Shown piece after piece: positions 23,809-59,000 of a stretch of DNA of 64,000 nt; position 1 is the first letter of the stretch, and every line of letters begins with the position of its first letter. The translations under genes and the position numbers were made by a program. Under the pieces are notes generated by a model. The model searched no databases and had not been told where the DNA came from. It was given only the letters and a program-made list of their open reading frames with translations. This stretch comes from Prauserella shujinwangii (GTDB lineage Bacteria > Actinomycetota > Actinomycetes > Mycobacteriales > Pseudonocardiaceae), in NCBI RefSeq assembly GCF_003001955.1, contig NZ_PVNH01000010.1, positions 62,001 through 126,000 on the forward strand. The letters are read 5' to 3'.

Positions 23809-24903
23809 TCAGGACGTGCGGTGCTCGGCGAGGAGCTGGGCGAGCGTGTGGACCGGTGAGCTGTCCAGCTTGTGCCGGTGTGCGTCGTAGCGGTCGCGGG
23901 TGGTGCGGATGTCGGCGTGCCCGAGCAGGTCCTGCACCCGCTGCACGGGCACCCCGTGGGCGAGCAGCAGCGTGCCGGTGGTGCGGCGCGCGGTGTGCGG
24001 GGAGATGCTGTCGGCGGCGGCCAGCCCCGCCTGCGCGGCGAGCCTGCGGAGGGTCTGCCAGACGTCGCGCTGCCGCAGCGGCTTCCCGCCCGGCTTGGCG
24101 GGATCGTGCGGGTGGGGTGTGGTCGCCAGCAGCGGCCCGGACAGCCGTTCCGCCGGCACGGCCTCGCGCCGGGCGCGGACGGCGAGGTAACCGGCGAGCG
24201 GGCGCAGCGCGGGTGCGACGACCGGCACGAAGTCGCGTTGCCCGCCCTTGCCGGTGTAGCGCAGGATCGTGTGCCCGGAGTCGGTGTCCAGATCGGCTAC
24301 GGTCGCGGTCGTGATGCCGGAGACGCGCAGCCCGGTGTAGAAGAGCAGGGCGATGAGCGCGGCGTCCCGCCACGAGGCCTCCGTGTCGTTGCGCCGCGCC
24401 CGCGCCTCGGCGTGGTCGAGCAGCTTCGCGGCGGAGCGCTCGTCGAGCGCGGGCAGGGGAGAGGCCTTGGCCCGTTTCGGCCGGGCGACGGCGCCGATGG
24501 GGTTGGTGTCGGCGACGTCGTTGGACTGCAGGTAGCGGTACCAGCTGGAGACACCGGCCAGCGTGCGCGCGACCGTCGACGGTGCGGCGGGCCGGGGCAG
24601 GCCGTCGCGGCCGGTCACGGTCAGGGTGGCCTTCCAGGCGTCGACGTCGGCCCGCCGGGCCCGCAGCGGGTCGAGACCGTTGCGGGCACACCAGGTCAGC
24701 CACGCGGCGAGGTCGGCGTAGTAGGCGCGCCGCGTGTGCTCGCTCTTGTCCGCGGCGAGCCAGAGCAGGGTGACGTGCCGGACGGCGTACCGGTCGCCGG
24801 GGTCGGCGGGTGGGAGCGCGGGCAGGTGCTCCACCGCCTCGGCGAGCGCGTCCTGGTCGGCGCGGCGGGCGACGAGTTCGGTGGCGGAGGACGGGTCGGT
24901 CAT
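23809..24903 (-). CDS. Tyrosine-type site-specific recombinase/integrase
   Basis: 364-residue integrase. It has a SAM-like core-binding domain (about 50-150, with SEHTRRAYYADLAAWLTWCA) and a catalytic domain with arginine in TGLRVSGI, lysine in GKGGQ, H-x-x-R in PHTARRTTG, and the LGHADIRTTRDRYD segment with histidine and nucleophile tyrosine. All catalytic residues are present. No tRNA, att repeat, excisionase or phage gene is nearby, so it may be a chromosomal XerC-like or orphan recombinase. The start is ATG at 24903 or GTG at 24906. Confidence 0.93.
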   Translation of the reverse strand: MTDPSSATELVARRADQDALAEAVEHLPALPPADPGDRYAVRHVTLLWLAADKSEHTRRAYYADLAAWLTWCARNGLDPLRARRADVDAWKATLTVTGRDGLPRPAAPSTVARTLAGVSSWYRYLQSNDVADTNPIGAVARPKRAKASPLPALDERSAAKLLDHAEARARRNDTEASWRDAALIALLFYTGLRVSGITTATVADLDTDSGHTILRYTGKGGQRDFVPVVAPALRPLAGYLAVRARREAVPAERLSGPLLATTPHPHDPAKPGGKPLRQRDVWQTLRRLAAQAGLAAADSISPHTARRTTGTLLLAHGVPVQRVQDLLGHADIRTTRDRYDAHRHKLDSSPVHTLAQLLAEHRTS

Positions 24904-24929
24904 CACGCTGATTCTGCACCGCGAGACGG

Positions 24930-24973
24930 ACGTGACCGTGGTGCCCCGCTGGCACGGGGCACCACGGTCACGT
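24930..24973 (-). terminator. Perfect 18-bp-arm hairpin after the sugar dehydrogenase gene
   Basis: Arm ACGTGACCGTGGTGCCCC (24930-24947) pairs perfectly with 24956-24973 around an 8-base loop. It begins 13 bases after the leftward dehydrogenase stop and ends before the recombinase start, so it should insulate the two genes. Confidence 0.85.
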
Positions 24974-24986
24974 CAACCGGAGGTGA

Positions 24987-42601: not shown

Positions 42602-42754
42602 ACAGCCCGGTGACGCCGGGTCCCGGTCGCCGTGAACGTGTGGCGAGGCGGCTGACCAGCGGTCCCGGCAGCCCACGTGCCGGTCGGGGCGGTGTGGCGG
42701 GTACGCACGGCGACCGGTCCCGCGAGGGCCGGCTCCGTCGACATCGAGAGCGAA

Positions 42755-42797
42755 CGCGCGTACCCGGCCCCACTGTCGCCGAGGCCGGGTACGCGCG
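42755..42797. terminator. Perfect 15-bp-arm hairpin
   Basis: CGCGCGTACCCGGCC (42755-42769) pairs perfectly with 42783-42797 around a 13-base loop. It lies 150 bases after the methyltransferase stop, rather far for its terminator, so another role is possible. Confidence 0.55.
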
Positions 42798-43110
42798 ACG
42801 TGCTCCATCGCCCGCGCTGGTAAGAGCCGGTCCAGCGGCTCAACTCCGGCATTCCCGGAGTCCCGCCAGACCTCGGTAGCGCGCGGCCCTCCGCCACGGA
42901 CTCCGCGTTCGGCGGGCCTTCCGGTTCCTGCTCCCGCGGACCGCGGGACGGTCGCCGCCACCACCTCGCCGGTGCCCAGAGATCCCCAGCGCAAAAAGCC
43001 CGCTCCGGCCCGTTCCGCCGGACCTGCTCCGCGGCCACGCGTCGTTATCGGCTCCCGGAGCCCTCCGGCGAGCATCCGGCCGCGGTCTCCTCGGCATCCC
43101 GATCCCGTAC

Positions 43111-43136
43111 ACCGTGATAAGGGGCATTATCACGGT
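43111..43136. promoter_or_regulatory. Perfect 26-bp dyad upstream of the coiled-coil gene
   Basis: ACCGTGATAA-GGGGCA-TTATCACGGT, with perfect 10-base arms, about 90 bases before the GTG at 43213. It looks like a strong protein-binding operator. Confidence 0.65.
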
Positions 43137-43149
43137 ATGTTTCTCTCAT

Positions 43150-43206
43150 CTGGTTTCACAGTATTGCGTGTCGCTAAACCAGTTTCACTAACGCGTGCGC
43201 GAAACT
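43150..43206 (+). promoter_or_regulatory. Overlapping inverted and direct repeats at the coiled-coil gene start
   Basis: CTGGTTT (43150-43156) pairs with AAACCAG (43176-43182), and AGTTTC (43181-43186) pairs with GAAACT (43201-43206). GTTTCAC also occurs as a direct repeat 29 bases apart (from 43153 and 43182). The array stops 6 bases before the GTG at 43213, suggesting autoregulatory, iteron-like binding. Confidence 0.6.
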
Positions 43207-43212
43207 GTAGGG

Positions 43213-44295
43213 GTGACGGAAGAGCAGGTCAGCGAGGTGGAACCGCAGGTGGACGAGCTGGGGGAGGCGCGCTGCGCCCTGGACGGATGCGACAACCCGT
43301 TGCCACCCCCCGCGGTCGACGAGCACGGACGGCGCAAGGGCGGGCGACCGTCGTCGTACTGCTGCAAGGCTCACGCGGACGCCGCCTCCCGCGCCCGGCG
43401 CGCCGCGCAGACGGCGGCGGTGGTGGATCCGCTCGTGGAACTGCGCCGGACCGTGGAGGCCTTCGCGCCCGCGGTGGAGCCACTGCGGGAGGCGCTGCGG
43501 TCGATGGACGAGCGGCTGGGCGAGGCGGAGAACGCGGCGATCGCCCACGTGCGGCAGTCCGAGCAGCAGGCGCTGTCGGCCCGGACCGAGGCCGAGGAGG
43601 CGGTCCGCAGGGCGGAGCAGGCGGAGCGGGCGCGGGACCGGGCGCTGGCCAAGGCCAGGGACGACCGGGACGCGCGGACGGAGGCGGAGAAGGCGGCGCA
43701 GCGGGCGCTGGCCGAGGCGGAGCAGATCCAGCGCGACGCGTGGGCGAAGGTCGCGCAACATGAGCGGGCCAGGGGAGCGGCGGAGTCGGCGGCCGCGACG
43801 GCGGCGCAGGCCAGGGACGAGCTCGCCCAGCAGCTCAGGGCGGCGCGGGAACAGGAGGAGCACGCCCGCGCGGCCAGGGCCGACCTGGCCGATCGCCTCC
43901 AGGCGGCCCAGGAGGAGCTGCGGGATCTGCGCGCGGCGCACACACTCGCCACGGAGCGCCTCGACGCCGCGACCGCCCGGGTGGCCGCCACCGAGACCTC
44001 GCTCGACCACGCGCGCCGCGAGACCGGGCAGGCCAGGGAGGAGACCGCCGCGCTCCGGGCCGAACTGGAACGGGTCCGCGAGGAACTGGCCACCGAGCGC
44101 GCGGCGCGGCAGGTCGCCGAGACCCGGGCGAGCAACGCCGACGCGGCGCTGGCCGAGGCCCGGACGCAGGTGAGCGCCCTGCGGGGTGAGCTCGACCAGG
44201 CACACGCGCGGGTCGACCGGCTGCTCGCCGAACGCGAAGCCCAGCAGGCCGCCGGGACGGGCGAGGGAAGCGAGGGCCACGCGTCGTCCGGCTGA
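43213..44295 (+). CDS. Zinc-finger plus long coiled-coil protein (KfrA-like architecture)
   Basis: 360-residue protein of no family I can name. Residues about 15-60 form a cysteine/histidine segment (CALDGCDN, then RPSSYCCKAHADAASRARR) resembling a DNA-binding zinc finger. Residues about 75-350 are almost wholly Ala/Glu/Arg/Gln with heptad periodicity, a single long coiled coil. This architecture recalls plasmid KfrA proteins: a DNA-binding head, a long coil and autoregulation. The GTG at 43213 is chosen because the alternative at 43195 lies inside the operator. Strand, frame and composition are clear; function is not. Confidence 0.82.
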   Translation: MTEEQVSEVEPQVDELGEARCALDGCDNPLPPPAVDEHGRRKGGRPSSYCCKAHADAASRARRAAQTAAVVDPLVELRRTVEAFAPAVEPLREALRSMDERLGEAENAAIAHVRQSEQQALSARTEAEEAVRRAEQAERARDRALAKARDDRDARTEAEKAAQRALAEAEQIQRDAWAKVAQHERARGAAESAAATAAQARDELAQQLRAAREQEEHARAARADLADRLQAAQEELRDLRAAHTLATERLDAATARVAATETSLDHARRETGQAREETAALRAELERVREELATERAARQVAETRASNADAALAEARTQVSALRGELDQAHARVDRLLAEREAQQAAGTGEGSEGHASSG

Positions 44296-46233: not shown

Positions 46234-46821
46234 TCAACCGGGGTCGCGCATCCGGACGCCGGGATGGTTGGCCCGGACGTTCCGGGCCGCGAGCTCGGCC
46301 GTCCTGGCGATCCGGCGCTGGCGCGTCTCCGGCCGTTTGGCGGCGGCGATCCATTCGAGGATGAGCCGCCTCGACGACGGCGGGAAGGCGTCGAAGTGCC
46401 TGCGGGCGGCGGCATCGCGGTCGAGCAGGGCGCCGAGGTCGGCGGGAACGGCCCCGGCCTCCGCGCCGGGCACGACCTCCCAGGTCCCGTTGGCCTTGGC
46501 CAGCTCCACCACGGCCTGCCCGGCTTCGGTCATCAGGCCGAGCTCGGCCATCCTCACCGCACGCTCCCGGTTCACCCGGCTCCAGCTGCTGCGCGGGGTG
46601 CGCGGGGAGAACCGCAGCTGCGAGCTGGTCGCGTCGCGCCTGCGGTGCAGGCCGTCGATCCAGCCGAAGCAGAGCGCGTGCTCGATCGCCTCGGGGTACC
46701 GCAGGCCCGGGGTGCCGCTGTTCTGGTGCCGCAGGACCAGCCAGACCTCCCGCTCGGTTGCCGAGTGGCGGGCGAGCCAGGCCCGCCACTCGGCAACCGA
46801 GTTCGCAACCAGGACGTTCAT
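46234..46821 (-). CDS. YdeI/OmpD-associated (bacteriocin-protection-like) family protein
   Basis: 195-residue protein: AEWRAWLARHSATEREVWLV, GLRYPEAIEHALCFGWIDGL, WSRVNRERAVRMAELGLMTE, and a C-terminal Lys/Arg-rich R-x-x-R-I-A-R segment. The family is widespread with no defined biochemical role. The ATG is one base after the VOC gene stop on the same strand. Codons about 7-23 are encoded by a perfect inverted repeat with 21-base arms, which could form a hairpin in the message near the start. Confidence 0.9.
   Translation of the reverse strand: MNVLVANSVAEWRAWLARHSATEREVWLVLRHQNSGTPGLRYPEAIEHALCFGWIDGLHRRRDATSSQLRFSPRTPRSSWSRVNRERAVRMAELGLMTEAGQAVVELAKANGTWEVVPGAEAGAVPADLGALLDRDAAARRHFDAFPPSSRRLILEWIAAAKRPETRQRRIARTAELAARNVRANHPGVRMRDPG
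46753..46801. repeat. Perfect 21-bp-arm inverted repeat inside the YdeI-like gene
   Basis: Arms at 46753-46773 and 46781-46801 (beginning CTCGGTTGCCGAGTGGCGGG) match exactly around a 7-base loop GAGCCAG. It lies about 20-70 bases downstream of the start codon in the coding sense. Confidence 0.9.
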
Positions 46822-58835: not shown

Positions 58836-59000
58836 GCCTCCGGATGTGCGCCCGGTATCGGAGGCGCGGGGAGGACGCACTGGGGAGCGCTTCCCCGCTA
58901 CTTAACATAATGTAGCTTATCGGCACTCTGGAAGGCTCCGGAGAGGTGCTGGTCGCACCGGTTCGGATGCGGCCGGCACCTCCCACGCGAGTACTCCCGC

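Follow-up and report, generated by a model that had tools for sequence, protein, structure and literature searches.

The question raised by this locus is what a run of palindromic DNA does directly in front of a gene for a long coiled-coil protein. It lies in a 64,000-nucleotide stretch of the Prauserella shujinwangii genome, referred to here as the window, and a preliminary description had pictured it as a cluster of six dyads forming iteron-like sites for a KfrA-like protein. The features concerned are the following.

42755..42797, no strand: upstream hairpin with 15-bp arms
43111..43136, no strand: core palindrome ACCGTGATAA-GGGGCA-TTATCACGGT, a perfect dyad of 26 bp, proposed as the recombination core of the recombinase TR1
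43153..43206, plus strand: 54-bp accessory block with half-sites GTTTCRC, GCGTGTCGYGAAAC and GCGTGCGCGAAAC, which aligns nearly without gaps across genera
43213..44295, plus strand: gene for a 360-aa coiled-coil protein with a Cys/His head (Zn-CC); the longest open reading frame starts at 43195
43273..43374, plus strand: the Cys/His head, C-x4-C-x23-C-x3-H (CALDGCDNPLPPP...GRPSSYCCKAHAD), from the orthologue alignment

That palindromes stand in front of the gene was borne out by comparison with dinucleotide shuffles: between 42602 and the gene start there are 15 dyads with arms of at least 6 bp (mean in shuffles 8.5, P=0.02), 3 with arms of at least 8 bp (mean 0.7, P=0.03) and 2 with arms of at least 10 bp (mean 0.065, 0/200 shuffles). 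Only two are outstanding, namely the 42755-42797 hairpin and the 43111-43136 palindrome, in which perfect 10-bp arms flank a six-base spacer. Upstream of orthologous genes we saw the palindrome and the 54-bp block but none of the other dyads, so that to count all six as one functional cluster was too generous; the hairpin, which has no counterpart in this upstream DNA, is probably unrelated to the module described here. The GTTTCAC inverted and direct repeats reported at the gene start are real and form part of the 54-bp block. Palindrome and repeats proved to be conserved with the gene when orthologues were compared, the result on which the preliminary description had made its case depend.

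The Zn-CC protein likely begins at the GTG codon at 43213 and not at 43195, as judged by comparing orthologues. Its head pattern (C-x4-C ... YC-x3-H) shows little or no variation among 12 orthologues and is a putative zinc-binding DNA-contact domain, where zinc binding is suggested by the residues themselves. Structure prediction gave a single helix over residues 33-322 of a 341-residue model (∼290 residues), in agreement with the head and long coiled coil originally described. The likeness to plasmid KfrA holds for the architecture, a head (DNA-binding in KfrA) followed by a long coiled coil, but not for the KfrA_N domain, which is missing from Zn-CC: the protein has no Pfam family match and none to KfrA_N (PF11740), and NCBIfam returned just a weak coiled-coil match to SMC. 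Foldseek returned no matches with the Zn-CC model, as expected because the model is one long helix. Of 120 Pseudonocardiaceae genomes, 27 carry an orthologue, in each case as a single copy, and orthologues are rare elsewhere in the class; since most Pseudonocardiaceae are without it, the module is not essential.

The palindrome itself is built like a dif site, with the pattern ATAA-N6-TTAT, arms of ∼11 bp and a 6-bp spacer. This pattern occurs exactly twice in the 308-kb contig, in the palindrome, which is single-copy in contig and genome, and in dif:

58900..58922, minus strand: canonical dif (CGATAAGCTACATTATGTTAAGT), present as a single copy, with 0 expected by shuffles; it marks the replication terminus and is context, not part of the module

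We rejected the possibility that the palindrome is dif, since the canonical site was found 15.7 kb away and the palindrome differs from the actinobacterial dif consensus that we used (PMC3025954). The palindrome arms covary (CCG/CGG to CGG/CCG, and outer A-T to T-A) above shuffled and slid controls.

The second gene of the module was first met in genome G128, where it diverges from the palindrome. In the genome of the window itself it lies 18 kb from the palindrome:

23809..24906, minus strand: TR1, an Xer-like tyrosine recombinase of 364-365 aa (Pfam Phage_integrase 4e-27)

Its catalytic residues R177, K203, H287-x-x-R290, H313 and Y323 (numbered on the aligned fragment) are invariant in 22 orthologues, and its best solved relative is XerD. 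TR1 scores 141.7 and 142.7 bits against the XerC and XerD equivalog models TIGR02224 and TIGR02225, below their cut-offs of 335 and 330 bits, and 64.7 bits against the XerS model NF003462, below its cut-off of 267 bits. Orthologues are present in 26 of the 120 Pseudonocardiaceae genomes. We also noted perfect hairpins with 20- and 21-bp arms in the window at 24929-24974, just upstream of TR1, and at 46753-46801.

An arrangement in which TR1 and Zn-CC diverge from the palindrome between them was observed in three Pseudonocardiaceae genera, in Actinopolymorpha (TR1 70% identical) and in family f31 (TR1 39-53% identical). In this arrangement the TR1 start codon often lies inside the left arm, the overlap being found in several genera, and this accounts for the CATAA variant of that arm. 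Several genera have TR1 displaced from the site by 3-75 kb; the left arm is then GATAA, TATAA or still CATAA, and in several genomes the palindrome is still perfect after TR1 has left. In g16 the core and traces of the 54-bp block stand in intergenic DNA beside neither gene, 15-18 kb from Zn-CC and 11-122 kb from TR1, and the promoters of both genes are without the core. A conserved stretch (...GGCAAAACGCTCTCAGATCGCCGCTGAGCGCC...) was seen ∼130-190 bp before the stand-alone core at loci L182, L186 and L178 (genomes G016, G070 and G100).

Before most orthologues, repeats of the form GTTTCRC / GCGTG..CGCGAAAC lie 22 bp past the palindrome, as they do in the window, where the block ends at the gene start and overlaps the putative Zn-CC promoter. 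We found no second good match to the block in the 308-kb contig (score 83.7 versus −5.2 for the next), the motif model having been built without the G043 row. The test of the block across genomes is weaker than that of the core, because a small number of true sites were included in its null and g16 gave incomplete matches. We propose that the block is the binding site of the coiled-coil protein.

The distribution of the three parts is correlated. TR1 is present in 20 of 22 genomes with the exact palindrome pattern (Fisher 1.6e-15) and shares 22 genomes with Zn-CC (of 26 and 27, respectively; P=1.6e-15, by genus 7e-7), while among the Zn-CC genomes the site was found in 20/22 with TR1 and 0/5 without it (P=2.6e-4); these P-values overstate independence because the genomes are related. 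The module is single-copy, and in several genera no sampled member is without it. Since the core follows TR1 and not Zn-CC, and stands alone in g16, a recombination site that has accessory repeats describes it better than an iteron or operator cluster does; of the proposed tie between palindrome and coiled-coil gene, conservation with the gene remains and the iteron-like reading is the less likely one.

Exceptions to this pattern were of several kinds. Three TR1 genomes without Zn-CC have a variant site, GGGGTGATAA-N6-TTCTCACCCC, 0.1-2.7 kb from TR1, at which the 54-bp block is missing. Conversely, Zn-CC is kept without TR1 and without a recognisable core in g24 and in G122; the block is retained in G024, and the other g24 genomes have neither core nor block at Zn-CC. 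This implies that in g24, and likewise in G122, Zn-CC either does something else or is decaying. Two g42 genomes with neither orthologue carry a diverged module 28-34 kb from dif, consisting of a TR1-like recombinase (38%), a different Cys-head coiled coil and the palindrome CGCGATAA-N6-TTAT. Palindrome matches without the module in G083, G086, G090 and G091 were taken as chance or other elements; none of them is near dif where this was testable, and the dif of G086 was not located. One f31 genome (G349, loci L120 and L126) has two Zn-CC paralogues with different palindromes, GGCTGGTGATAACCTTCCTTATCGCCAGCC and CGCTGCCGATAAGGCAGGTTATCGGAAGCG, which suggests several modules with separate specificities.

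The module is linked to the replication terminus. In complete genomes dif lies opposite dnaA, as seen in G015, G043 and G091 (G015, dnaA at 0 and dif at 3.37 of 6.85 Mb; G043, dif at 6.10 of 11.76 Mb and dnaA at its end). Considering genomes with the gene and dif on one contig, which leaves out g52, where they are on different contigs, we report a distance between Zn-CC and dif of 7.6-119 kb (median 21.5 kb) in 24 of 24 Pseudonocardiaceae genomes, and the linkage is kept in 10 genera. Taking the worst genome of each genus, the combined P is ∼4e-12, a value that ignores shared ancestry. Zn-CC and dif are ∼70 kb apart in Actinomadura and 280 kb apart in Actinopolymorpha; in another Amycolatopsis the distance is 20 kb. 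Bystander synteny was rejected as the cause of the linkage, since the genes in between are mostly not conserved and the side and orientation of Zn-CC relative to dif vary between clades. No unambiguous dif was found in family f31. Six f31 genomes without a recognisable dif (G392, G440, G501, G349, G284 and G189) each contain once a nearly identical GAGATTTAGATTTATGTCAA, which is possibly a dif that has diverged, or else coding sequence.

Further recombinases and palindromes were seen near dif. TR2, a tyrosine recombinase 27% identical to TR1, lies within ∼1-1.5 kb of dif (loci L140, L145, L053, L081, L083, L050 and L215 of genomes G100, G043, G016, G080, G108, G021 and G122), and a second palindrome of the same type was present near dif in the inspected genomes G100 (CCGTTTCATGCATAA-N6-TTATGCATGAAACGG), G016, G070, G122 and G043. 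G013 has a palindrome of like type 592 bp from dif, where TR2 was not noted. In g24, which is without TR1, a third tyrosine recombinase, with weak similarity to TR1 (27-28%), lies 2-3 kb from dif (genomes G126 and G105; L207 3215-4030 and L208 10064-10879).

Relatives of the module occur on actinobacterial plasmids. Pseudonocardia autotrophica pPA12743CP and Prauserella marina pPmarDSM45268 both carry a TR1 relative (37-38%) and a divergent Cys-head coiled-coil gene, with an ATAA-N6-TTAT palindrome between them. The spacer of the pPA12743CP palindrome, TGCCCC, is the complement of the window's GGGGCA, and the pPmarDSM45268 module lies beside repA and parA. Among eight inspected plasmid TR1-like recombinases, six have ATAA-N6-TTAT 24-1361 bp upstream, compared to ∼0.003 expected for each by composition. 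Beside the core palindrome of the Prauserella marina plasmid (L222 3249-3462) we observed a 13-bp inverted repeat, TGTTTCGTAAACA / TGTTTACGAAACA, which is likely an accessory site resembling the window's GTTTCRC half-sites. A viral origin was rejected, as no relatives were found in viral contigs or phages, nor any of the Zn-CC head on plasmids.

We found no description of this module in the open-access literature, and compared it with several known systems. The closest is TnpS/TnpT/rst, which resolves cointegrates of Tn4651-type transposons of the Tn3 family, and where TnpS recognises a core and its helper TnpT, encoded divergently with the palindromic site in between, binds an accessory palindrome (PMC7157771, PMC4619425). 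Both systems combine a tyrosine recombinase with intact catalytic residues, a divergent coiled-coil helper of ∼330-360 aa, and a palindromic core with accessory repeats between the genes. However, TR1 is just 24% identical to TnpS, and Zn-CC has a Cys/His head where TnpT of Tn4651 combines KfrA_N (Pfam 2.6e-26) with its coiled coil. This make-up of TnpT bears out, for the architecture, the KfrA comparison of the preliminary description. The module described here is also chromosomal and terminus-linked, with a recombinase that is non-adjacent in many genomes, including the window's own. Because the helper head is different and no Tn3 transposase was found among the five largest plausible open reading frames of the window, we regard the module as a new variant that by analogy would work like TnpS/TnpT/rst, and not as a member of that group.

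With XerCD/dif the module shares an Xer-like recombinase, the ATAA-N6-TTAT core and a single site near the terminus; it differs in that the genome has a separate canonical dif, TR1 scores ∼142 bits against cut-offs of 330-335, the core arms are symmetric and an accessory block is present. Like the module, XerS/difSL and XerH/difH have one recombinase and a terminus location, and the XerS site adjoins its own gene (PMC5357621), but these systems replace XerCD and no coiled-coil partner is reported for them; difSL has an 11-bp central region instead of the 6-bp spacer found here. The cer and psi plasmid resolution sites also join a core to accessory sequence bound by helpers that impose directionality (PMC5357621), helper binding being proposed in our case, whereas their helpers are PepA with ArgR or ArcA and their recombinase is the host XerCD.

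We consider it likely, with a probability of about 0.68, that the locus is part of a chromosomal three-part site-specific recombination module near the replication terminus, an accessory multimer-resolution system beside XerCD/dif. TR1, acting as a solitary recombinase, would bind the two palindrome half-sites and exchange strands across the 6-bp spacer. Zn-CC would bind the adjacent 54-bp block and bridge two copies of the site, and such bridging may give the reaction its direction, so that directly repeated copies within one molecule are resolved. As the site is single-copy, the natural substrates would be chromosome dimers or pairs of sister chromosomes, each of which carries the site twice. 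Multimer resolution near the terminus is what we infer as most economical from the single-copy site, the terminus linkage and the plasmid relatives. Against it counts the movement of TR1 by 3-75 kb in several genera, which is unusual for a tight module, as do the retention of Zn-CC without TR1 or core in g24 and G122, the absence of the module from most Pseudonocardiaceae genomes, the separate contigs in g52 and the 280 kb between gene and dif in Actinopolymorpha. XerCD/dif also appears intact in module genomes, judging from the conserved dif, so dimer resolution would be redundant, and neither rearrangements nor products of recombination were observed at the site.

Since the start codon of TR1 overlaps with the palindrome in several genera, and the block covers the putative Zn-CC promoter, palindrome and repeats might instead be transcription-factor sites for the divergent promoters, serving for example in autoregulation and not in recombination; promoters are also found within the rst sites of Tn3 transposons (PMC7157771). 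We think this rather unlikely. In g16 the core persists between genes with neither TR1 nor Zn-CC as its neighbour, and the Zn-CC promoters of that genus are without it, so the palindrome is not merely an operator; it is perfect in several genomes after the departure of TR1, has dif-like spacing and recurs as the same type upstream of plasmid recombinases. Operator and recombination core can, however, be one and the same site. The existence of plasmid versions, the patchy distribution and the variable DNA between gene and dif would also fit a resolution module of plasmid or transposon origin that was captured by the terminus, a place where foreign DNA collects, and is now domesticated or decaying and has no function. 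This is unlikely for a single-copy module that several genera have in all their sampled members, with invariant catalytic residues, a core maintained through compensatory changes, dif linkage kept in 10 genera and no Tn3 transposase among the large open reading frames of the window.

Two further explanations were weighed. Zn-CC might be a KfrA/MatP-like terminus-organising or partition protein on a centromere-like repeat block, the recombinase being incidental, as its long conserved coiled coil, its location and its retention without TR1 in g24 could suggest. A single good block per 308-kb contig, with no spread array as for matS, makes this quite improbable, and so does the fact that in three families Zn-CC occurs together with TR1 and diverges from it. 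In the rtp-Ter and tus-TerB systems a gene lies next to a terminator site at the terminus, and here too a gene at the terminus adjoins a palindrome; a fork trap of the Tus-Ter or RTP-Ter type is nevertheless barely credible, since it needs several oppositely oriented sites and ours is single-copy in contig and genome. We rejected both a fork trap and a matS-like array on the single copy of core and block.

The usual view is that each chromosome has one system for resolving its dimers. More tentatively, and at a little short of even odds, several actinobacterial lineages may keep a second terminus-specific system, in which a solitary Xer-like recombinase acts on a core that resembles dif and comes with accessory repeats, and in which a zinc-head coiled coil controls directionality independently of FtsK, with related modules serving actinobacterial plasmids. 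The plasmid relatives suggest that this type of module moves between plasmids and chromosomes. If the recombination module is what we take it to be, some actinobacteria would run two systems at the terminus, or would use recombination there for something else.
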